Assembly (NCBI GenBank): GCA_964017235.1
Contig: OZ024940.1
Location: 124,001 to 188,000 of the forward strand
Direction: 5' to 3'
DNA from: Sabellastarte sp. h YS-2021
Taxonomy: Eukaryota > Annelida > Polychaeta > Sabellida > Sabellidae
DNA: 64,000 nt
The notes under the pieces: generated by a model
Database searches by the model: none
Seen by the model: only the letters and a program-made list of their open reading frames with translations
Told to the model about the DNA's origin: nothing
Made by a program: the position numbers and the translations under genes
Shown: positions 12,757 to 64,000 of the stretch, in pieces
How the letters are laid out: the number at the start of each line of letters is the position of its first letter
How positions within the stretch are numbered: the first letter of the stretch is position 1

Positions 12757-13952
12757 TGGAAGCTCTGAACTGCCAAAGTTTTTTTATTTTAGTAACTTGA
12801 ATATACGAGTTAGCTAACTCGAATGTTACTAACTTGAAACTACCAGTTAACTAACTTGAATATACGAGTTAGCTAACTTGTATATACGAGTTAACTAACT
12901 GGAATATATGAGTTAGCTAACTGGAATATACAAGTTACCAAGTGGAATATATGAGTTAATAACTGGAATATACAAGTTAGTAACTTCAAAATACCAGTTA
13001 ACTAACTTGAATATAAGAGTTAGCTAACTGGAATATACAAGTTAACTAACTGGAATATACGAGTTAGCTAACTTGAATAATATACGAGTTAACTAACTCA
13101 AATATACAAGTTAGCTAACTGGAATATATGAGTTAACTAACTGGAATATACAAGTTAACTAACTTGAATATACGAGTGAGCTAATTTGAATATACCAGTT
13201 AACTAACTTGAATATACGAGTTAGCTACCTGGAATATATGAGTTAATAACTGGAATATATGAGTTAGTAACTTGAATATACGAGTTAGCTAACTGGAATA
13301 TACACGGTAACTAACTGGAATATACAAGTTAGCTAACTGGAATATACGAGTTAACTAACGGGAATATACGAGTTAGTAACTGGAATATACAAGTTAACTA
13401 ACTTGAATATACGAGTTAGTTAATTTGAATATACCAGTTAACTAACTTGAATATATGAGTTAGCTAACTGGAATATATGAGTTAATAACTGGAATATATG
13501 AGTTAGTAACTTGAATATACGAGTTAACTAACTGGAATATACACGGTAACTAACTGGAATATACAAGTTAGCTAACTGGAATATACAAGTTAACTAACGG
13601 GAATATACGAGTTTGTAACTGGAATATACAAGTTAACTAACTTGAATATACGAGTTAGTTAATTTGAATATACCAGTTAACTAACTTGAATATACGAGTT
13701 AGCTAACTGGAATATACAAGGTAACTAACTGGAATATACAAGTTAGCTAACTGGAATATACGAGTTAACTCGTATATTCCAGTTAGTAACTTGTATATTC
13801 AAGTTAGCTAACTCATATATACAAGTTAGTGAACTGGTATATTCAAGTTAGGTAACTGTTCTTTTCAAGATAGTAACTTGTACATTCAAGGTAACTAACT
13901 TGTATATTCAAGTTAGTAAAATAAGAAAACTTTGGCAGTCCAGAGCTTCTGT
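12757..13952. mobile_element. Foldback-like element with about 48-bp terminal inverted repeats
   Basis: The left end (GAAGCTCTGAACTGCCAAAG, from 12759) matches the reverse complement of the right end (CTTTGGCAGTCCAGAGCTTC, 13930-13949). The match extends inward for about 48 bp with about three mismatches. Between the ends lies only a 22-bp tandem array, and no open frame belongs to it. The element interrupts one unit of the surrounding 200-bp satellite within its GTGTAGAATACTCGTCTATA part. The exact outer limits and any duplication are unclear. It resembles foldback elements or a MITE whose centre has expanded. Confidence 0.8.
12796..13918. repeat. 22-bp self-complementary minisatellite that reverses orientation
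   Basis: Units read GAGTTAGCTAACTGGAATATA with variants TTGAATATA and TTAACTAAC. The half-site AGTTAGCTAACT is itself palindromic. Up to about 13766 the units read GGAATATACGAGTT. From there they read AACTCGTATATTCC. The switch point, 13753-13780, is a 28-bp perfect palindrome. A few units have lost 4 bp (AGTTAGTAACT or AGTTAATAACT). Confidence 0.93.
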
Positions 13953-16900
13953 ATATAATGACCATCTTAAGCTATTTAAACTCAAAACTGCACATAAGAT
14001 ATCTGAAAAAATAAAAAAAAACTTAACATGTAACATTAACCGGAAAAACGCCCAGTTAAATAACACTAATAAATCAAAGGCTATGTTACAATCCCTGTAA
14101 TATACTTAATATTTGAATGATTTTAATCAAACTACCACCAAATTGCCCCTTATTATGTGTAGAACACTCGTGTATAGCTTTCAAGCTCGAAACTATGTAT
14201 AAGATTTCCCAATTATCAGAAATTCTGCAGCAAAAATTCACAGAAAAAAATTGTCCAAATTAAATAACACTGGCAATGAAGTCCTATGTTTTAATCTCTG
14301 TAAAATAATCTTTGGGTGAGGTTTATCAAACAAACACCAAAGTGTCCCTTATTATGTGTTGAATACTTGTGTCTAGCTACCTAAACTACAAACTAAGTAT
14401 AAGGTATCTTAAAAATAAAAGAACTTACCATCCAACATGCACGGACGAAAATTGAGAAATTAAATAACACTAATAAATGGAAAGCTATGTTACAATCCCT
14501 GTAAAATACTTAATATTTGAGTGTTTTTGATGATACTACCACCAAATTGTACCTTGATATGTGTAGAACTCTTGTCTATAGTTAACTAAAGTACAAACTA
14601 AGTACAAGAGGCCCCTAAATTCAGAAACTTAACAGCAACCTACATGGAAAACATTTGCTAAGTTAAATAACACTGGAAATCAAAGCAGAGGTTTAAAGCC
14701 GTGTAAAATACTTAATTTTTTTAAATTTTAATCAGACAAAAGCCAAATTGTACCTTATTCCATGTACAATACTCATGTATAGCTAGTTTAGCTACGAAGT
14801 AAGTATGAGATGTCTTAAAATAAAGAATCTTCACATCCAATATGCACAGAAAAATTCGCAGAATTAGCTCACTTTGAAAATGAATGACCATGTTAAAATC
14901 CCTGTAAAACACTTAAAATTTGGTTGATTTTGATGAGACAACAACCAAATTGTACCTTATTATATGTAGAAAACTCCTATACACCCATTTAAACTAGGAA
15001 CTAACTACAAAATATCTTAAAATTATGACACTTGACATCCAACATGTACGGGCGAAGATCGCCCAATTAATAACACTAATACATCAAAGTCTATCTTACA
15101 ATCCCTGTAAAATACTTAATATTTGAGTGATTTTCATGAGACTACCACCAAATTGTACCTTATTATGTGTAGAAGACTTATCTACAGCTACTTACACTAC
15201 GAACTAAGTACAAGATATCGTAAAATTAAGAAATTTAACAGCAACATTCTCGGAAAAAATTGCAGAATTAACTTACATTGCAAATCAATGACTGTGTTAA
15301 AATATCTGTAAAACACTCAATATTTGGATTATTTTATAAGACAGCCACCAATTTGTGCCTTAATATGTGTAGAATACTTGTATATACTTGCCTTAACTAA
15401 GGACTAAGTAGAAAATATCTTAAAATTAAGAAACTTAACATGCAACATGCAGGGGCCAAAATTGCCCAATTAAATAACACTGGAAATCAAAGCTGAGGTT
15501 TGAATCCTTATAAAATGCTTAATATTTGGTTGATTTTCATCAGGCAAAGGCCAAATTGTTCGTTATTGTGTGTCGAAGACTTTTCTGTAGCTACTTTAAC
15601 TACGACTTAGGCTTAAGATGTCATAAAATTAAGAAACTTGACATCCAACATGTAGGGCCGAAAATTGCCCAATTAAATACACTAATAAATGGAAGGCTAG
15701 GTTACAACCACTGTAAAATACTTAATATTTGAGTGATTTTGATGAGAAAACCACCAAATTGTTGCTTATTATGTGTAGAAGACTCGTCTAAAGCTACTTT
15801 ACCTACAAAGTAAATGTAAGATATGTTAAAATTAAGAAATGTAACAGCAACATTCACGGAAAAATTCGTAGAATTAGCTTACATTGTAAATCCTTGTAAA
15901 ATACTTAATATTTGAGTCATTTTTATGCGAAAACCACCATATTGCCCCTTATTATGTGTAGAACACTCGTCCATAGATAGCTGAACTGTGAAGTAGGTAT
16001 AAGATATCTTAAAATTAAGAAACTTAACAGCAACATCCACGGAAAAAAATTGCCCCAATAAAATACTATTAGAAATCAAAGCCCAGGTTTTAAAGCCTGT
16101 AAAATACTTAATATTTGAGTGACTTTCATCAGACAACCAGTATATTGTCCCTTATTATGTGTAGAAGACTCGTCTGTACCTATTTAAACTAGAAACTGAG
16201 TATAAGATATCTTAAAATTCAGAAATCTGACATTACACATGCACAGGCGAAAATGTTGCCCAATTAAATAACAGTAATAAATCGAAGTCTATATTACAAT
16301 CCCTGTAAAATACTTAATATTTGAGTCATTTTGATGAGATAACCACCAAATTGTGCCTTATTATGTGTAGAACACTCACTTATAGCTATTTAATCTACAA
16401 ACTCAGTATAAGATGCCTTAAAATTAAGAAACTTAAGAGCAACATTCACGGAAAAATTCGCAGAATTAACTTCCATTGCAAATCAATGACTGTGTTGAAG
16501 TCCTTGTAAAATACTCAATATTTGGGTGATTTTTATGAGACATCCACCAAATTGTCCCTTATTATGTGTAGAAGACTGTACAAGATATCTTAAAATGAAG
16601 AAATTTGACATCCAATATGCATGACAAAAAACGCCCAACTAAAAACACTAATAAATCAAAGGCTTTGTTACAACCCCTGTAAAGTACTTAATATTTGAGT
16701 CATTTTCATGAAACTACCATCAAATTGTATCTTATTATGTGTAGAATACTCGTCTGCAGCTACCTAAGCTATGAATTAAGTATAAGATATCTTAAAATTA
16801 AGAAACTTGACAGGAACATTCACGAAAAAAAAACGTCCAATTAAATAACACTGGAAATTAAAGCTTAGGTTTAAATCCGTGTAAAATACTTAATATTTGT

Positions 16901-17301
16901 GTTATTTTCATGAAACAAAAGGCAAATTGTTCCTTATTATGTACATAATACTCATCTGTAGCTATTGAGGGTAGAAACTAAGTGTAACATGTGTTAAAAT
17001 TAACACAGAAAACAAATAAATTTATGAAGTAACACTGATAAATCGAAATATATGTTACAATTCTATAATACTTATTGTGTGAAGTATTTAAATTTTCCCG
17101 CTTTTTACATTTAAAAATTAAGCATAAGATATCTTTTAAAACAGATATTATATATTGTAGTTTGAAAATTAGGTGATATTTAAGCGATTTTCACATTTTA
17201 CTCACTGAATTCTGTCACTTTTTTCATTTGAATTCCAATTACCGTGAAAGTGTGAAATCACCTTTAGCATAGAAATTTCTGGAGACAGAGTGCACACAAC
17301 T

Positions 17302-17372: not shown

Positions 17373-18196
17373 ATGTCTGAACTTTACTGGAGTGACAAGG
17401 CTCTAAAAGACTCTGATCTTCTTAAAAAACTGTACGATGTGAGGAATGATTCACAATATAGAGTGTTAAATTTGTCCGGGAACAACCTGACATCTCTACC
17501 AGACCTGAGGACATTCAGGCAGTTTGACAACCTGAAAGTGTTACATCTGCGGCGTAACAACCTCAGAGACATTGATTTCAGCATCATTCCACCAACAGTG
17601 ACATGGCTTTACCTTAGTGAGAATAAACTTACACGTGTGGGGAGTCTGATTCATTGTACAGAACTAAAATACTTGTTTGTATCAGAGAATCAACTCACAG
17701 ATGTAGACTGGAGGAACCTTCCACCTGCACTGACAGGGCTTCACCTTGACAGTAATCAACTCACCACAGTGGGAGATGTGAGCCAGTGTACACGACTGAG
17801 TGGATTGGGGGTACAGGACAATCACATCACTCACATTGAGTGGAGGAACCTTCCACCTGCACTGACATGGCTTGACCTTGGCAATAATCAACTGACCACA
17901 GTTGATTTGATCCACTGTACACAACTGGAATGGTTAGATTTGAGAGATAACCCCACACTTCATACTATTGAGTCACTTCCAAATAAACACATTGATAATT
18001 TTTACATCAGTGAAAGTGTGAAGGTTTTGGGAAGAAAGTGTTTTCATGAAAACAACTACAACATGTTGAGGGAAAAGTGTGAATCACGATGGTCTGGTTT
18101 GAACCTAGAACAACCACCAGTAGAAGTGTTGTTACAAGGACTTGAGGCCGTGTTAGAGTATTACACAGAGAAATCCATCAGAACTACACACACTAG
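17373..18196 (+). CDS. Exon 1: leucine-rich repeat domain (residues 1-274)
   Basis: The start ATG sits in AAAACATGT, with A at -3. After a short N-terminal helix (SDKALKDSDLLKKLY), repeats of the LxxLxLxxNxLT type run from about residue 30 to 225. Examples are VLNLSGNNLTSLPDL, VLHLRRNNLRDIDF, WLYLSENKLTRVGS, YLFVSENQLTDVDW, GLHLDSNQLTTVGD and WLDLGNNQLTTVD. Two units share the phrase WRNLPPALT, encoded by near-identical DNA at 17709 and 17841, so a 44-residue pair was duplicated. A capping region with several cysteines and a helix (EVLLQGLEAVLEYY) leads into the GTPase. The exon ends ACT AG followed by GTAATT (phase 2). Read on as plain DNA, the frame stops at once in the intron. Confidence 0.9.
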
Positions 18197-18203
18197 GTAA
18201 TTT

Positions 18204-18285
18204 GTTTACTTTATTATTATTTTTTTTTTTGCTTGCCGTTTTTTTTTTTTTTTTCTTTTTGTTGTTTATTTTTTTATTTGGTTTA
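18204..18285. repeat. T-rich microsatellite next to the intron 1 donor
   Basis: Runs of T up to 15 long, with scattered G, A and C, start a few bases after the splice donor of exon 1. They are good candidates for length polymorphism. Confidence 0.85.
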
Positions 18286-18419
18286 TGTTATAAAGGACAG
18301 TAACTGCTTATATAGCACTAGAATCTCTCCAAAATGGACACAGTAAACAAGTTTCTGTGTGTGTGTAAGATTTATACTGTGCTTTTATTTTGTTTATTTT
18401 GTTCTCCAACGGTATTTAC

Positions 18420-19745
18420 TGTGTATAATTAGCGTCAAAAATCGGAAAATATGGGCCGAATTTTGCTGGTAATATTTCAAAAACTGTGTAAGCTACAGAC
18501 ATGTCACATACACCGTTGGAAAGGTATTTACACAGAGATTTTGCTCGTATTTGTTGCATGAAAATCCGTGCAGAAATAGTGGAGTAATAGCTAAATAAAG
18601 ATGGACGTTTTTGGTATCATTAACGCTACTTTAGTTTGAAAGTTAGCGTCACAAATATATAGTAGAAACAGCTACAATTTTTTTCTCTCCAAACATTTCA
18701 ATAGTTACAGAAGCACAAGTTTGTGTTATGTACAACATTACAAAGGTCTGTTTACAGAGTGTCTGTTCGTGTTTGTTGTACGGACATCCAAGCCAAAATT
18801 GCATAGAAATCTGACATTTTTCTGTTCATTGACGTGAGCTAAAGTTGAGAGTTAGTATGATATATTCAGAGTACACTGCCGATATTTCCCAAATATTTGA
18901 ATGATTATAAAAGCTAGAAGTTTGTGCGATATACACCATTAGAAAGATCTGTTTACCAGAGATTTTCTGCTCATGTTTATTTTATTGAAATCCGTGCAGA
19001 AATCACAAATATGAAATTAGCGTCACAAGATGTGCCGACGGCTTGTTTTGCTTATATCTCACTATGTAAGCTACAAATATGTGACTTACATCACTAGAAA
19101 GGTGTGTTGACAGACTTTCTGCTTGTGTTAGTTGCATGAAACTCTACGTAGTAATGGCAAGAGAAATCTCAGATAAAATCAGCATTAGAAATCCGTCAAC
19201 CAGTGCCGAGTTTTTCATTAATATTTTAGAAACTACTTGACTTATGAATTTTTCGTGTAGATCATTGGAAACGTATCTCTACACAGCTTCTTCTCGCGTT
19301 TCTTGCATCAAAATCTAAGCAGAAATGGTGGAGTAATCGCAAGCTCAAAATTGATATTTCTATATTTACTGACACTACTTGGGGTTAAAAGTTTACAGTA
19401 TAAGCCCAATATTGCAAATATTTAAATAATTACGTGAGCTATAAGTAAAAGTTATACTTCAATAGAAAGCTATATTTACACAGTTTCTGTCTGTTTGTTG
19501 TATTAAAATCCATGCAGAAATTGCAGAAATCTTGAGTTAAACATTGAAAGTTTTTGTGTGTACTTCGGAACATAAATACGTGTATCACAGCTGATTTATT
19601 CTCTCCATTCTTTGGTAATATCTCCCTCATTTTGCAAGTTAAAACTGTATGCTACACACTGTTAGAAAGCTATTTTACCAGAGTTTCTCCTCGTCTTTTT
19701 GCATTAAAATCCATGATGAAATGGTGGAGTAATCACAAGTTCAAA
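18420..19745. repeat. Old tandem repeat of 160-220 bp in intron 1, seven units
   Basis: A shared block, ATTGGAAAGGTATTTACACA then GAG.TTTCTGCTCGTGTTTGTT then GCATGAAAATCCGTGCAGAA, recurs near 18513, 18735, 18937, 19101, 19261, 19459 and 19658. Spacings are 222, 202, 164, 160, 198 and 199 bp. Units are heavily diverged, so the array predates the sharper satellites nearby. Confidence 0.8.
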
Positions 19746-19790
19746 ATTCATGTTGTGATCACTGGGAGATATTGCGCTCAAAAGATGTAA

Positions 19791-20027
19791 TGGAATGGCG
19801 ATGTAGCGGTTAGAGTGCTTGCCCTCAACCTCTGAGGTCGCTGGTTCAAATCTCGGCCCGGGCTCTTCATGTTGGAAAGTTGGTAGTTACTTGCCAATGA
19901 CCGGTGGGTTTACAGTGCAGAATCTAGACCCACTAGTATGCACTGGTTCCCCCAAGCGTAAACTGTCTGTTGCAACATGACATTGCTGTTGAACACAAAA
20001 AACAACAAATAAATCTAAATCTAAAAC
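19791..20027 (+). mobile_element. tRNA-derived SINE, copy 3, in intron 1
   Basis: This is the same family as the copies at 8669 and 10751. It has an A-box region CGATGTAGCGGTTAG, a B box GGTTCAAATC (19843-19852), the CTTCATGTTGGAAAGTTGG body and an AAATCTAAATCTAAA tail. The likely duplications are CAAAAGATGTAA (19779-19790) and CAAAAGATATAA (20028-20039). It has a short insertion, AATCTAGACCCACTAG, near 19920-19935 and is otherwise full length. Confidence 0.88.
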
Positions 20028-20144
20028 CAAAAGATATAAAATGACGTAAAGTTAAATAAATAATCACATAAACTGATTTCAACAAATTTCAGAAAACTGG
20101 AGTTTTCATCAAGGACCAAGGAAACTGCTTTGACCATTGATTGT

Positions 20145-20450
20145 CTGCTACTGTGGCCTAGCGGGTAACACACTTGTCTAGCAACTCAGAGGACGTGGGT
20201 TCAAACATAGTGGCTTGGATGACCACTTAGAATGGTGGTCTTCTGTCATTAAGGCCTATCTCCAGTAGCAGGTTAAAGAACCTCAAGGATGTTGATAAAT
20301 GGTCATCCTTGAGCTTCTATCGTCCAGTAAGGGGAATGTCAGTTACTTGTGAGTTGAGGGCTGTACATGTGCAATTGAATTGGTTAAATAGCACTTTGAG
20401 TCTTGTAGTATATGGAGATATTGTGCTGAATATAAAAACACAATACCAAT
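20145..20450 (+). mobile_element. Second SINE family: tRNA head with L2-like tail
   Basis: An A box TGGCCTAGCGG (20153-20163) and B box GGGTTCAAAC (20197-20206) form a tRNA-like head. The roughly 220-bp body is unlike the other SINEs here. It ends in AGCACTTTGAGTCTTG...GCTGAATATAAAAACACAAT, which resembles the 3' ends of L2-mobilised SINEs. Target duplications were not found with confidence, so the ends are approximate. Confidence 0.7.
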
Positions 20451-20540
20451 ACTAATACATGCTATGTATAAATTTGAAAGTATTTCAAAAGAATGTTTGA
20501 CATCAACTCATTGCCTGTTGTTATTGTTGCTGCTTTTCAG

Positions 20541-22177
20541 CCTAATGCTGTTGGGCCCAACAACTGCAGGCAAGTCCAGTATCATGAAATCACTGATGGA
20601 GGGGAAAGCTGTTCTGGTCCACATTGATGATCGCACGCAAGTTGCTGACATCCAAACCTTGGAGATAACTCCACAAGATTCCATTCAACTCTTCGATCAT
20701 GGGGGCCATGATATATATAGGATAACAAGTCCCATATTCATTGTTCCTAATGGCACTGTCGCACTTGTTCATGACATCAGTCAAGTTGGTGAAAACAGGG
20801 TTGATGATACAACAGCCATTTTGCGCCATGCACTGGCTTATCACCCTGAAAACCAGGTTCACCTGGTGCTCACCCACACAGATGTTGTCAGTACAGATGA
20901 TGTACAGAAGAATAGGGACTTTATAGAGGCCAATGTTCATGCATGTATTGATCATGAAATCCAAAGTCTCACACGTCCCATTGAGGAGGACGAGGCAAGA
21001 AAACAGCTGGTAGCCCAACTGCAGAAGCAGAAGGACAACATGGAGGTGTTTCTAGTGTCAAGCAAAACTTTTGAGGGCATGGAAAATCTTAAGGAATTCC
21101 TTACAAAGGTAACATCTCAGAACCGGGTGTCATTGCCAGAGAAGTGGGTCAAGTTCTACAAACTCATGTTAAAACAGCAAAAGAACTTTTTCCAAATAAC
21201 TGAGTTGCAACAACTCTTCAAAGAATTGTTTTTCAAGGGCACACAGATGTTTCAACAGGAGAAAATCAAGAAGAAGTTTAGGTCAGCATTGGAATATTAC
21301 CGTGCTGCTGGGCATGTGCTACACTTCCCAGACAATCCTGTCCTAGCGGAGTATGTCTTTCATAACAAAGACTTCCTTCTAAGGCTCCTGCAGTCATGCT
21401 TTCACCACAATCTCAAGGATGCCACCAACTTTGGAGACCTGGTGCAAACCATGAATGTCTCTAACATCAATCTGATGCTACAACAGTATGATAAGGAGGG
21501 TCTGTTGGCTATTGAACTCCTGCGATTTCAGTGGCGACAATATGGGCTTAAAGAAGAGGAAGAAAGAGCAGTACTGGAAATAATGAAGAAATTCCATATC
21601 TGCTATCCAGTGGATGGCTCTGAGAAAGTATGGTTTTTTCCATATTTTGTGAGAAGCAATGAACCACCAGCTTCACTGGATTTAAAGAAAATGGATACAA
21701 CAAACAGGCAGTATTTCTCAGTTCTGCTGAACTGTGTGTTCAGTCACCTCATACCTATAAATGCGTTTGAGGCAATGCAGGTGCAGGTGCAGAAAACTGC
21801 CGTTGACAGAAAATACGGAAATTCACGTTATGCCTGGCACAATGGCATCCGTGTGAATATTGGCGCTTTGGAAATCACAGCATTAAGAAAAGCCTCGCAA
21901 TCAACAATTTCACTCTGTGTTTGTGCACCGAGTGATGATGTAGAACAGGTGTGGCAAGTCACTTCCACTGTCTATTCTGACCTGGAAGCAGTCATTCAGC
22001 CACTGCTGGGTGTCATCAAATTGATTTATTTCGAATGCACCCACTGCATTGAGAAACATCTACAGCCTGTGCACAAACGCACCCCCAGTGAAGTTCTCAA
22101 AAATGAAGGGCCAGATGTGACCTATGAGTGCTGCAACGGTGATGAAATTCCAAGAGCTTTGGTGATTGCACCCTCTG
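20541..22177 (+). CDS. Exon 2: Roc GTPase and COR domains (residues 275-820)
   Basis: The P-loop is GPTTAGKSS (280-288). A switch I threonine candidate is T307. The G3 motif is DHGG (327-330), where most GTPases have DxxG. The G4 motif is THTD (386-389), close to the THxD of Roc domains. G5 is VSSK (447-450). COR follows, with typical text such as LPEKWVKFYKLML, ITELQQLF, YYRAAGHVLHFPDNPVLAEYVF and CTHCIEKHL near its end. In ROCO proteins COR dimerises and controls GTP turnover. The exon ends at the strong donor CTG|GTGAGT. The hydrophobic leader that open-frame reading adds in front of the P-loop is the intron's pyrimidine tract, not protein. Confidence 0.92.
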
Positions 22178-22448
22178 GTGAGTTAGTAAGATCAAGTTGA
22201 TGTTCATAATTTATATAATTCAAAGAAAAAAACTTGTCTGGTCAAAAACTGAAGGGTGAGCTTTATATTTTCAGTTCCATTTTATGTTTCTTAAAATACA
22301 TTCTACTTGAGAAGTGTATGGGAAACTAGAGTTCTTTTTAACATTATATGTGTATATTTGAGTTTACCACCTTGATAGGTAGTTGCCTTTTCATAATTCG
22401 AACAAAAGATGTTCTGTAAAATCTCTTAATGTATTTTCTTGTTTGTAG

Positions 22449-22514
22449 CTGGAAGCAAGAGGATCAAAGAGCATGTCACAAAAGTACAAGCCCATCTGAA
22501 GACAACATTCCGAG
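22449..22514 (+). CDS. Exon 3: linker helix (residues 821-842)
   Basis: The acceptor is TTGTTTGTAG and the donor is CGAG|GTATAA. The 66-nt phase 1-1 exon encodes GSKRIKEHVTKVQAHLKTTF, a basic, probably helical linker between COR and FN3. Its frame fits both neighbours. No domain is recognised. Confidence 0.75.
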
Positions 22515-22945
22515 GTATAAAGTTTAAGAGCAGGTTTTACGTGTTGTTACAACACTGTGCATGTCACAGTATCATGTGTCAATTGTCAAGAAACTAATTA
22601 TGATAAATACCTTTAAAGTATAGTATGCTAAAATATATCCAAATCTTATAGCATGTAACATATTAATACTAATTAAGTGTTTTATATTAAGTGTTTTATA
22701 TAGATTTCTATTCAGAAATATTGACACTTAAAAATATTGTGACACTCATTGTAATGTGACATCCCTTTAAATAGCATGAAACCTTGCCCTCAAAGACAGA
22801 ATGTTGTACGTATGTTATTGTGATTATCTGTACAACTGTACAAACCTTGCCCCCAATGTCCTAAAAAGTCCATGTGCAATGTTAAAATTGATTCATAATA
22901 ATAACTATTGAACAGATTATTTTTTCCCAATGTTTGTCCTTACAG

Positions 22946-22984
22946 ATGATGACAATGATGATGGCAATGAAGTAAATACACATG
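22946..22984 (+). other. Possible alternative micro-exon, 39 nt, acidic
   Basis: A good acceptor (TGTCCTTACAG) precedes ATGATGACAATGATGATGG. Using the weak donor ATG|GTCATG gives a phase 1-1 cassette of 13 residues (DDDNDDGNEVNTH) that would insert between exons 3 and 4 in frame. The better-looking donor GAA|GTAAAT at 22972 would break the frame. The main model works without this exon, so it may be unused or alternative. Confidence 0.3.
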
Positions 22985-23210
22985 GTCATGTAAAATATCA
23001 GTGGGATGACATTGTTTTGACCTGCCATTATAAGTCTTAAACAACATTCTATGTTCTTAAAGTCACCTAGAATGTCTACAAACTATATTGATAATTTCTC
23101 TTGATAAAAAATAAAATGCTAAAATGTCTAGAGTATTGTGGGCATTGTATTTTGGCAGTGAACATATAACACATAAAATAATTAATGGCAATTGTAATTT
23201 TATTGAACAG

Positions 23211-23414
23211 AAACATCCTTGCCTGGCAAGCTACTCTACCTTGACTGTGAAGAAGATGGCAAAAATCAGTTTCAACTGTCTTGGGGTTGGCCTACTTGTG
23301 ATAAAGAGACTGGTGCTTTGGCTGCAACAACCCATGCAGCGGTGGAGTACAGGGAGGGGCAAAAGTGGTCACGACTGGGTGACGACATAAGAAAATCACC
23401 TTATCTGGTTGAAC
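23211..23414 (+). CDS. Exon 4: first part of fibronectin type III domain (residues 843-910)
   Basis: The acceptor TATTGAACAG and the strong donor GAAC|GTGAGC define a 204-nt phase 1-1 exon. It reads TSLPGKLLYLDCEED...FQLSWGWPTCDKETG...AAVEYREGQKWSRLGDD. The LSW tryptophan, the proline after it and the VEYREG strand are FN3 features. The frame continues past the donor for a few codons to a stop, so the splice is required. Confidence 0.82.
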
Positions 23415-23669
23415 GTGAGCTAAAAACCTCAGAATAACAGCCAGTAGATCATTTGAATGTATTTAGAATAATAAGGATGTAATTTGACAAAGAACATGTT
23501 TGTCTCTGCTGTGGATTACAATGTATCTATTAAGAAATATCTTTCTTATCTTAATTAATTTTATCATAGAATGATAAGAAATCACAAAAAATGAGATTAT
23601 TTATTAAATGTCTGTTGATTTTTTTGTATTTTTTTGTAACATTTGTTTGTACTTTTTTGTTTTTATCAG

Positions 23670-23756
23670 GTGATGCAGAAGAGTTCAGGGTAGCTGCAAT
23701 AAATAAGAATGGATTGGGAGAATTCTTATATGTTACCCCCTACCATGTAGTACAAG
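23670..23756 (+). CDS. Exon 5: second part of fibronectin type III domain (residues 911-939)
   Basis: The acceptor is TTTTTATCAG and the donor is CAAG|GTATGC. This 87-nt phase 1-1 exon reads DAEEFRVAAINKNGLGEF. That is the classic FN3 F-strand and FG-loop pattern (YEFRVxAxNxxGxGE), with the tyrosine position changed to E. It completes the fold begun in the previous exon. Confidence 0.85.
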
Positions 23757-24227
23757 GTATGCTAAACATTCAGGTAGTTTTACTCCTTTATATTTCTTTT
23801 TGGTAAATGAGTTATGCACCAAAGTATGCATAAAATTCTTACTTCAATTCAAGAGCACCCTCCTCTTTTCCAGCAAACACTTATTTGAAAATATTTAATT
23901 AGTGTTTTACATGGAACCTAGTTCCCTTTTATCAGTTTTTCGTAATGTATAGTTACAAGGGCAAAGAAAAACAGTACATTCAGTTGGTCAATGTTTTGTA
24001 CTTTAAACTGTCCACAAACAGTAAGCTAGTACCAGCCTCCACACTTTGAAGCAGGCCTTGATGTCAACTCCATTCTCAAGGCAAGTGTGTTAGCACCTAA
24101 CCACCATCACCCCTGTAACATGTGTAATAAGACATTTTTTTTATTAAAATCAAAGTTGAATAATCTTTGAAAGTAACAATTCTTAAAACTAGTATCATAT
24201 GTGATTGGTTGATTTAATGCTTTCTAG

Positions 24228-24389
24228 CTGATGAATTAATAAGTGACAGCGACAGGGACAAAATGAAGAAAAACCATGAGTTTTTCACCAGAATGAGCAA
24301 TGTTTCAGAAATTCTACTGAGACTCTTTACCAGAGGTGTTATTTCAGACTTAGCTCATGATAGACTCAACGGAGCAGAAAACAAAGCAG
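24228..24389 (+). CDS. Exon 6: first half of CARD (residues 940-993)
   Basis: The acceptor is GCTTTCTAG and the donor is GCAG|GTACTG. The 162-nt phase 1-1 exon reads DKMKKNHEFFTRMSNVSEIL then LRLFTRGVISDLAHDRLNGA. This matches helices 1-3 of a CARD, including the helix-2 LxxLxxxGVIS pattern. The intron falls between helices 3 and 4. Confidence 0.85.
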
Positions 24390-24653
24390 GTACTGAGTAA
24401 ATATTGTAGAACAATATGTGGAACATTGACAAGTTCTTAGTACTATTTATTTGTCATTAGAGGTTTAGGCTGCAAATTATGTTTATTGTTTATTATGTAT
24501 GGCTGTAAAGTACTTGGAATAGACAAAGAGTGTCTTAAAGATTTTTAATGCTTACTATGAGTCTAAATTCTTTGACACAGACATTTTATTTGACTGGAGA
24601 GATGATGATAAACAATTGGTTTGCTAAATTTTTGTTCTGGCTTATTTCTGTAG

Positions 24654-24898
24654 ATCAACTGATGAAGAGTGTTATCTACAGGTGCACATACAGGCAGCTT
24701 TACCTGTTCCAGAAAACTCTAGAAGAAACTGGCCAGTCAGTGATGGCTGCTACTGTGCCTGTGATACTACAGAAGAAAAAGGCACCATCTCATGAGTCTT
24801 CATATGCTGCAACTGCAATTCCACTAGTGCAAACAGAAATGGTAGAAGGTGGCATCACGTCTGATCAGAGGCAACTCACTTATCAGAGAGACTCATAG
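24654..24898 (+). CDS. Exon 7: second half of CARD and C-terminus (residues 994-1074)
   Basis: The acceptor is TTATTTCTGTAG. The exon completes the CARD with DQLMKSVIYRCTYRQLYLFQ and KTLEETGQSVMAATV. These correspond to the LLxxLxxRGxxAFxxFxxAL and GQxxLA patterns of helices 4-6. A Lys/Ser/Thr-rich tail of about 40 residues follows to the TAG at 24896-24898. The hydrophobic frame that seems to precede it (from 24548) is intron. Confidence 0.87.
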
Positions 24899-28535: not shown

Positions 28536-28640
28536 AATTCTATAGACTCAGACTGGACCCCTCTATCTATTGATGGAAAAAAATTGGTGTCCCTTGGACC
28601 CCTCTATCTATTGGTGGAAAAAAATTGGTGTCCCTCGGAA
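28536..28640. repeat. Left boundary of the large satellite with an internal duplication
   Basis: The array starts abruptly within a monomer (TATAGACTCAGACTGGACCC). Within this first unit the segment GGACCCCTCTATCTATTG.T through the GGTGTCCCT phrase is duplicated in tandem, about 40 bp. It gives a short extra piece before the regular pattern starts. Confidence 0.8.
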
Positions 28641-61100: not shown

Positions 61101-64000
61101 TTTAAAATCAATGGGAAATACTGTTTCTGCTCATATCTACCGATTTAAGGTCTTTAGACCCTACCCTGTTATATTGTATAGACTCAGACTGGACCCCTCT
61201 ATCTATTGGTGGAAAAAAATTGGTGTCCCTCGGAACGACCAAATTTGGCGTACTCGGTGCTAAGACAACTGTACTAGTGTATATTGCATGGCCAAATCCC
61301 CATTTAAAATCAATTGGAAATACTGTTTCTGCTCATATCTATGAAATTGAGGTCTTTAGACCCTACCCTGTTATATTGTATAGACTCAGATTGGACCCCT
61401 CTATCTATAGGTGGAAAAAAATTGGTGTGCCTCAGAACGACCAAATTTGGAGTACTCGTTGGTAAGGCATCTACACATGTATGACAAATTCCCCATTTAA
61501 AATCAATGGGAAATACTGTTTCTGGTCATATCTATGAAATTAAGGTCTTTCGACCCTACCCTGTTATATTGTATAGACTCAGACTGAACCCATCTATCTA
61601 TTGGTGGAAAAAAATTGGTGTCCCTCGGAACGACCAAATTTGGCGTACTCGTTGGTAAGGCATCTACACATGTATGACAGATTCCCCATTTAAAATCATT
61701 GGGAAATACTGTTTCTGGTCATATCAACCGATTTAAGATCTTTAGACCCTACCCTGTTATATTGTATAAACTCAGACTGGACCCCTCTATCTATTGGTGG
61801 AAAAAAATTGGTCTCCCTCGAAACGACCAAATTTGGCGTACTCGGTGGTAAGGCATCTACACATGTTTTACAAATTCCTCATTTAAAATCAATGGGAAAT
61901 ACTGTTTTCTGCTCATATCTACCTATTTAAGGTCTTTAGACCCTACCCTGTTATATTGTATAGACTCAGACTGGACCCCTCTATCTATTGGTGGAAAAAA
62001 ATTGGTCTCCCTCGAAATGACCAAATTTGGTGTACTCGGTGGTAAGGCATCTACACATGTTTTACAAATTCCTCATTTAAAATCAATGGGAAATACTGTT
62101 TTCTGCTCATATCTACCGATTTAAGGTCTTTAGACCCTACCCTGTTATATTGTATAGACTCAGACTGGACCCCTCTATCTATTGGTGGAAAAAAATTGGT
62201 GTCCCTCGGAACGACCAAATTTGGCGTACTCGGTGCTAAGACAACTGTACTAGTGTATATTGCATGGCCAAATCCCCATTTAAAATCAATGGGAAATACT
62301 GTTTCTGCTCATATCTATGAAATTAAGGTCTTTAGACCCTACCCTGTTATATTGTATAGAGTCAGACTGAACCCATCTATCTATTGGTGGAAAAAAATTG
62401 GTGTCACTCGGAACGACCAAATTTGGCATACTCGGTGGTAAGGTATCTACACATGTATGACAGATTCCCCATTTAAAATCAATGGGAAATACTGTTTCTG
62501 GTCATATCTACCGGTTTAAGGTCTTTAGACCCTACCCTGTTATATTGTATAGACTCAGACTGGACCAATCTATCTATTGGTGGAAAAAAATTGGTGTCCC
62601 TCGGAACGACCAAATTTGGCGTACTCGGTGGTAAGGCATCTACACATGTATGACAAATTCCCCATTTAAAATCAATGGGAAATACTGTTTCTGGTCATAT
62701 CTATGAAATTAAGGTCTTTCGACCCTACCCTGTTATATTGTATAGACTCATACTGAACCCATCTATCTATTGGTGGAAAAAAATTGGTGTCCCTCGGAAC
62801 GACCAAATTTGGCGTACTCGGTGGTAAGGCATCTACACATGTATGACAGATTCCCCATTTAAAATCAATGGGAAATACTGTTTCTGGTCATATCTACCGA
62901 TTTAAGGTCTTTAGACCCTACCCTGTTATATTGTATAGACTCAGACTGGACCCATCTATCTATTGGTGGAAAAAAATTGGTGTCCCTCGGAACGACCAAA
63001 TTTGGCGTACTCGGTGGTAAGGCATCTACACATGTATGACAGATTCCCGATTTAAAATCAATGGGAAATACTGTTTTCTGCTTATATCTACCGATTTAAG
63101 GTCTTTTGACCCTACCCTGTTATATTGTATAGTCTCAGACTGGACCCCTCTATCTATTGGTGGAAAAAAATTGGTGTCCCTCGGAACGACCAAATTTGGC
63201 GTACTCGGTGCTAAGACAACTGTACTAGTGTATATTGCATAGGGAAAATCCCCATTTAAAATCAATGGGAAATACTGTTTCTGCTCATATCTATGAAATT
63301 AAGGTCTTTAGACCCTACCCTGTTATATTGTATAGACTCAGATTGGACCCCTCTATCTCTAGGTGGAAAAAATTGGTGTCCCTCGGAACAACCAAATTTG
63401 GCGTACTCGGTGGTAAGGCATCTACACATGTTTTACAAATTCCTCATTTAAAATCAATGGGAAATACTGTTTTCTGCTCATATCTACCGATTTAAGGTCT
63501 TTAGACCCTACCCTGTTATATTGTATAGACTCAGACTGGACCCCTCTATCTATTGGTGGAAAAAAATTGGTGTCCCTCGGAACGACCAAATTTGGCGTAC
63601 TCGGTGCTAAGACAACTGTACTAGTGTATATTGCATGGCCAAATCCCCATTTAAAATCAATGGGAAATACTGTTTCTGCTCATATCTATGAAATTAAGGT
63701 CTTTAGACCCTACCCTGTTATATTGTATAGACTCAGATTGGACCCCTCTATCTCTAGGTGGAAAAAATTGGTGTCCCTCGGAACAACCAAATTTGGCGTA
63801 CTCGGTGGTAAGGCATCTACACATGTATGACAAATTCCCCATTTAAAATCAATGGGAAATTCTGTTTCTGGTCATATCTATGAAATTAAGGTCTTTCGAC
63901 CCTACCCTGTTATATTGTATAGAGTCAGACTGAACCCATCTATCTATTGGTGGAAAAAAATTGGTGTCACTCGGAACGACCAAATTTGGCGTACTCGGTG

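Follow-up and report, generated by a model that had tools for sequence, protein, structure and literature searches.

A predicted ROCO-family protein with LRR, FN3 and CARD regions in Sabellastarte, and its many paralogues

The window analysed here is a 64,000-nucleotide stretch of the genome of the polychaete annelid Sabellastarte sp. (G000:C21:124001-188000), and it contains a gene whose seven predicted exons encode LRR, Roc, COR, FN3 and CARD regions, in that order, within a single gene model. All of the exons lie on the forward (+) strand, and the introns are bounded by GT and AG throughout. Joined in silico, the exons bear out the reading frame proposed in the first-pass annotation, giving 3225 nucleotides (nt), or 1075 codons including the stop, and a product of 1074 amino acids. 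Exon 1 (17373..18196; 824 nt, ending in phase 2) encodes the LRRs at approximately amino acids 30-210, and exon 2 (20541..22177; 1637 nt) encodes the Roc GTPase and COR. A linker exon follows (exon 3, 22449..22514; 66 nt, phase 1-1), then two exons assigned to FN3, with the first part in exon 4 (23211..23414; 204 nt, phase 1-1) and the last part in exon 5 (23670..23756; 87 nt, phase 1-1). The first half of the CARD is in exon 6 (24228..24389; 162 nt, phase 1-1), and exon 7 (24654..24898) contributes the second half, a tail and the TAG stop codon. Every junction beyond that of exons 1 and 2 is of phase 1; exons 3 to 6 are therefore symmetric, and copying or exchanging any of them would leave the frame intact. 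An additional 26-nt exon at 22946-22971 was considered and rejected; it disrupts the frame, and its best counterpart among 29 close paralogues matches at 17 of 26 bases.

The first three members of the domain series proposed in the first-pass annotation, an LRR, a Roc with P-loop and THxD motifs, and COR, is recovered directly from the window protein. The LRRs score above the Pfam cut-off (LRR_4, 7.5e-24; LRR_8, 1.2e-19), as does Roc (2.8e-6; 28.0 bits against a cut-off of 27). COR-A (PF16095; amino acids 474-641, 21136..21639) scores 33.0 bits (6.6e-8) in the full protein, under the cut-off of 35.3, and on rescanning reaches 34.9 bits alone and 40.3 bits together with its neighbours in frame; COR-B is matched in paralogue L045 alone, at 20.2 bits and under its cut-off of 27. 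COR directly follows Roc, as expected of a ROCO protein, and the best matches of exon 2 in PDB are the Roc domains of LRRK2, the protein associated with Parkinson's disease (best E 5.4e-4). The P-loop GPTTAGKS (G1; 20554..20577) and the THTD sequence (G4, of the THxD type; 20872..20883) are likewise of the kind found in ROCO proteins, and both glycines and the lysine of the former, and the T, H and D of the latter, are invariant in all 42 family members compared. Pfam searches of the window protein at E<=10 found neither the protein kinase domain of the LRRK and DAPK proteins nor the NACHT domain of the NLRs, and a search of phages with exon 2 gave no match.

Exon 2 identifies a large paralogue family in its own genome (1.786 Gb in 647 contigs), with at least 88 matching pieces that merge into at least 79 Roc-COR loci, and the two CARD exons yield at least 144 matches at E<=1, some of which contain stops. 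These lists are lower bounds, with 80 of 187 candidates scored in the exon 2 search and 150 of 162 in the CARD-exon search. Among the 29 close paralogues (L010-L038), the acceptor AG and a donor GT of exon 2 are, by eye, kept in every one, and searches within their 1.5-kb flanks found counterparts of exon 3 in 26 and of exon 4 in 25. Counterparts of exon 7 also lie downstream of paralogues. At 64 of the 79 loci at least one CARD exon match (E<=1) lies downstream on the same strand, within 20 kb and before any further locus, and 51 loci retain one at E<=0.001 by hand recount; both CARD exons are linked at 50 loci, or 41 at the stricter threshold (also recounted by hand). The linked exons are mostly within 7 kb of the Roc-COR locus. 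Altogether 130 of the 144 CARD exon matches are linked and 14 are not, where uniform placement would give approximately 0.06 linked matches by chance. Two of the unlinked matches are full length: one (C5:33387058, E 0.38) is recognised by Pfam as a CARD in its own right (36.4 bits; 4.1e-9), and the other (C5:140824266, E 0.97) is absent from the Pfam CARD matches listed.

This linkage bears on whether the C-terminal exons could be part of an adjacent, separate gene. The same order and strand recur downstream of the great majority of the loci, mostly at short distance, and the intermediate exons are conserved with compatible phases; we consider a separate gene extremely improbable and discard it on the CARD linkage. 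The conservation of the arrangement over a large family supports the one-gene reading of the first-pass annotation.

The more distant loci (L039-L050, n = 12) were examined over approximately 4 kb downstream, with matches counted up to E 0.1. CARD-profile matches are present at six (L039, L044, L045, L047, L048 and L050) and FN3 matches at seven (L039, L042, L044, L046, L047, L048 and L050). Locus L045 (G000:C3:111.9 Mb), which is far from contig ends, encodes LRR-Roc-COR in one frame of 1004 amino acids, with a one-piece CARD-like frame approximately 1.45 kb further downstream and no FN3 match in the profile search of this region. The CARD-like frame matches a CARD hidden Markov model (HMM) at 9.6e-6 in a small set of frames, and Pfam CARD at E 0.033 (14.7 bits, under the cut-off of 23.9). 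Possibly L045 is nearer to the ancestral form. A different arrangement is seen on contig C18, where each of three ROCO loci that resemble one another is followed by a tandem run of three CARD exon pairs (G000:C18:153216-157848, 1846905-1851553 and 2123850-2128501). The stop codon of the window gene lies in its final exon, so the extra pairs may be alternative ends or decaying copies.

The identity of the C-terminal domain was approached through paralogue profiles because single-sequence tests with Pfam and phmmer were negative. The set comprises 15 sequences, the window domain and 14 paralogues; L068/L069 and L071/L072 are omitted since their first exon piece is cut short, L039, L044 and L050 since the second half is missing or incomplete, and the junction in member 13 (L073/L074) is assumed. 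Pfam CARD matches eight of the 15 (best E 0.0041), the window's not among them, and eight other Pfam families are listed with one matched member each. The 15-member profile matches three PDB chains at E<=10, and all three are CARDs (cIAP1, 0.0016 and 0.0084; CED-3, 0.43). Profile alignment with hhalign to eight CARDs of the same genome gives a probability of 93.8 (E 1.7e-7, score 41.8), these eight including one (L070) that was fetched because of its likeness to the query. As controls, the best of 300 column shuffles scores 19.6 against the eight and 18.1 against the seven other than L070, and the reversed profile scores 8.0 and 8.8. Exon 6 matches an HMM of the eight genomic CARDs, L070 included, at E 0.0046 in a small set of frames, and both CARD exons are matched by the paralogue profiles. 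The CARD of the first-pass annotation is thereby upheld in part: the profiles recover it at the level of the family only, and the window protein alone has no Pfam match. A terminal domain of another death-fold type (Death, DED or PYD), or an unrelated helical bundle, would fit the lack of any convincing match to the window sequence by itself, but CARD is the only family to match more than one member, and the PDB profile matches are all CARDs, with shuffled profiles, the control used, scoring far below; we regard such a domain as very improbable.

CARDs occur in other settings in this genome. At L005 (649-1779, - strand; G000:C19:13.8 Mb) a CARD (3.4e-17) shares a single frame with a Bcl-2 domain (7.8e-26), and ankyrin-repeat frames at L003 and L007 (G000:C11) carry a CARD after the repeats. 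Caspases are also encoded in the genome, and gene content of this kind marks it as that of an animal.

The FN3 assignment has a similar standing. Exons 4 and 5 are matched by paralogue profiles, and exon 5 includes a conserved EFRVAAxNxxGxG-like stretch. Pfam fn3 matches six of ten family members (best E 0.03), the window's not among them, and the top PDB matches of the ten-member profile are titin, at 1.3e-46 to a chain with several FN3 domains and 1.2e-6 to a chain of 104 residues. L013 and L017, in which the end of exon 4 is unclear, and L046 are omitted from this set. The FN3 domain that had been proposed is thus found by the paralogue profile and at the family level only, with no Pfam match to the window protein alone.

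Comparisons among family members show purifying selection on the predicted Roc-COR and CARD coding regions. The ratio of nonsynonymous to synonymous substitution rates (dN/dS) for exon 2 has a median of 0.24 over 21 loci; it was calculated for 22 of the 29 close loci, with the near-duplicates L019, L020, L021, L024, L028, L030 and L036 omitted, and the median also omits L010. For the CARD the values are 0.16-0.45 over nine pairs, picked without a preset rule from 14 paralogue pairs. Partial LRR comparisons give 0.67, 0.23 (pair L015) and 0.67, and part of the LRR thus changes faster in two of the three. An alignment of four LRR stretches by eye shows scaffold residues largely kept and adjacent positions differing, as in LTxLxLxNN, which is no more than suggestive.

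These values also bear on whether the window copy, or much of the family, consists of decaying or unexpressed duplicates. Stops do occur inside the exon 2 match at some other loci, and repeats and a retroelement surround the gene. However, the window copy has an uninterrupted frame of 1074 codons, exon 2 and the CARD are under purifying selection, and exon 2 is free of stops in 42 of 42 compared sequences, these being the best matches and hence biased to intact copies. We consider decay improbable.

The Roc-COR loci are concentrated towards contig ends. There are 44 of the 79 within 5 Mb of an end, where a uniform distribution would place at most 10.5%, and 71 within 11 Mb, where it would place at most 19.9%; these expectations are upper bounds and were computed without contig C15. 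Counted as clusters, 14 of 31 are within 5 Mb and 25 of 31 within 11 Mb (binomial 9e-7 and 6e-13). The 11-Mb threshold was chosen after the positions had been seen, and contig ends are not proven telomeres. For comparison, three of the 43 Pfam CARD matches listed are within 5 Mb of a contig end and six within 11 Mb.

The segment of the window at 19650..22150 (+) is approximately 99% identical in 150-bp windows to a copy at G000:C11:103.67 Mb, and flanking windows are 54-84% identical in this one pair examined. Either gene conversion or an assembly error would leave this pattern, and gene conversion is the likely source. Duplication and conversion could hold the signalling core uniform, with the recognition surfaces differing.

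The surroundings of the gene are rich in repeats. Tandem repeats of approximately 203 bp lie directly upstream (window 14019-16964), and a tandem array with units of approximately 193/386 bp starts at 28554 and is continuous to the window end at 64000. Further arrays, of 147 bp and 22 bp, are present at 1-2304 and 12789-13917 respectively. Between 6753 and 12089 there are frames that by eye resemble a DIRS/Ngaro-type retroelement, mainly on the - strand, and the same short peptide is encoded near 6.75 kb (-) and 12.09 kb (+), which suggests inverted retroelement ends.

These data are best read as a sensor that resembles an NLR but is built around a ROCO core; with no NACHT found, it is not itself an NLR. 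At roughly even weight, we take the protein to be receptor-like and a member of the ROCO family, and probably NLR-like in its working; the first-pass annotation's phrase, an NLR-like receptor reached by a different route, is a reasonable inference. By analogy with LRR, Roc-COR and CARD domains elsewhere, the LRR would bind a microbial or damage-derived ligand, and binding would alter both the dimerisation of Roc-COR and the nucleotide that it carries. These changes may in turn expose or cluster the C-terminal CARD, with FN3 as a spacer or docking surface, and the CARD could then recruit another CARD protein by homotypic contact, leading to a death or inflammatory response. In favour of such a role we count the proposal that brown-algal ROCO proteins are candidate immune receptors (in the accessible text of PMC11378527). 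With dozens of relatives, many of them toward contig ends, the family has the look of an NLR-like receptor set that was assembled independently.

Several observations weigh against a receptor of this form. Even with the threshold relaxed to E<=10, Pfam matches neither CARD nor FN3 in the window protein, phmmer with the window's C-terminal domain has a single PDB match (E 1.7) that is not a CARD, and E-values for single CARD members are weak. The hhalign probability drops to 73.9 (E 2.8e-5, score 31.0) when L070 is left out, and an AlphaFold model of exon 2, made without an alignment, is poor (predicted local distance difference test, pLDDT, 39.7). No CARD exon match lies within 20 kb downstream of 15 of the 79 loci, and L040, L041, L043 and L049 have neither a CARD nor an FN3 match in the approximately 4 kb searched. 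The LRR rate comes from three partial pairs, one of them not elevated. By eye, no CARD-caspase neighbour is evident among the CARD and caspase matches listed. A paper on placozoan immunity (PMC6321704) does not use the term ROCO, so its authors evidently did not count proteins of this kind among the immune ones.

Some of the same evidence could be explained by a ROCO-CARD scaffold that serves apoptosis or stress signalling and senses no pathogen, with LRRs binding fixed host proteins and a CARD tuning a caspase or IAP. Human ROCO proteins act in cell death and trafficking, the CARD of cIAP1/BIRC2 is the nearest one of solved structure, and the LRR pair L015, at 0.23, would suit a fixed partner; dozens of copies, the contig-end bias and the quicker change of the LRR in two of the three pairs are nevertheless more typical of receptors, and we judge the scaffold unlikely, if a serious contender. 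A more ambitious form of the NLR-like sensor is tentative, and possible more than probable. On this view the family would make up a third class of LRR-NTPase receptors in animals. It would be a ROCO-CARD repertoire driven by GTP, covering 51 to 64 of the at least 79 Roc-COR loci according to the cut-off and kept near chromosome ends, in which conversion homogenises the core, the LRRs diversify and alternative terminal CARD exon pairs could switch the output.

Among known ROCO proteins, LRRK1 and LRRK2 share the LRR-Roc-COR order and the THxD motif, and LRRK2 provides the closest solved Roc, whereas no kinase was found in the window protein. MFHAS1/MASL1 is similar in having LRR-Roc-COR and no kinase, but it is not known to carry the CARD or FN3 predicted for the window protein. 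It is reported as restricted to deuterostomes by Marin et al. 2008, as cited in the accessible text of PMC4104024. DAPK1 also combines a ROCO core with a C-terminal death-fold domain, although its kinase precedes Roc-COR, it lacks LRRs and its death-fold domain is of the Death type, according to the portions available of PMC6337361. ROCO proteins with immune-signalling domains are present in the mollusc Aplysia, where the accessible text of PMC9334734 names TIR, EF-hand, MBT or Death as the domains joined to ROCO, and not CARD. The nearest precedent is Trichoplax adhaerens, with at least 17 ROCO genes whose predicted products, taken together, surround ROC-COR with LRRs, CARDs, death domains and further partners (Civiero et al. 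2014, PMC4104024); FN3 is unmentioned in the available part of that paper, and at least 79 Roc-COR loci are present here. The Trichoplax combination is repeated in the accessible part of PMC11378527, which counts as many as forty domain combinations in animal ROCO proteins.

ROCO with CARD is therefore a known predicted combination, and the novelty suggested in the first-pass annotation is narrowed to that extent. It persists in that the full-text literature searched, which held few subscription papers and did not include bioRxiv, gave no characterised ROCO-CARD protein and no bivalve ROCO-CARD family in the text accessible, and no account of the FN3-CARD form, the family size, the contig-end bias or the conversion tract. 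The available parts of PMC8195603, PMC7159879, PMC2575513 and PMC4346834 likewise contain no ROCO-CARD protein.

If the protein signals through its CARD, the family would add to the candidate intracellular receptors known from this lineage of animals. It would also offer a natural system for asking how the nucleotide state of Roc-COR controls a clear output, a matter debated for LRRK2. NLRs such as NOD1/2 and NLRC4 combine LRR, NTPase and CARD, as the window protein is predicted to do. They differ in that the window protein has a GTPase and lacks NACHT, and the order is reversed, with the LRR N-terminal and the CARD C-terminal, so that it resembles an NLR read backwards. Should the CARD indeed signal, animals would have built an LRR-switch-CARD sensor twice, once on the ATPase of the NLRs and once on an LRRK2-like GTPase.

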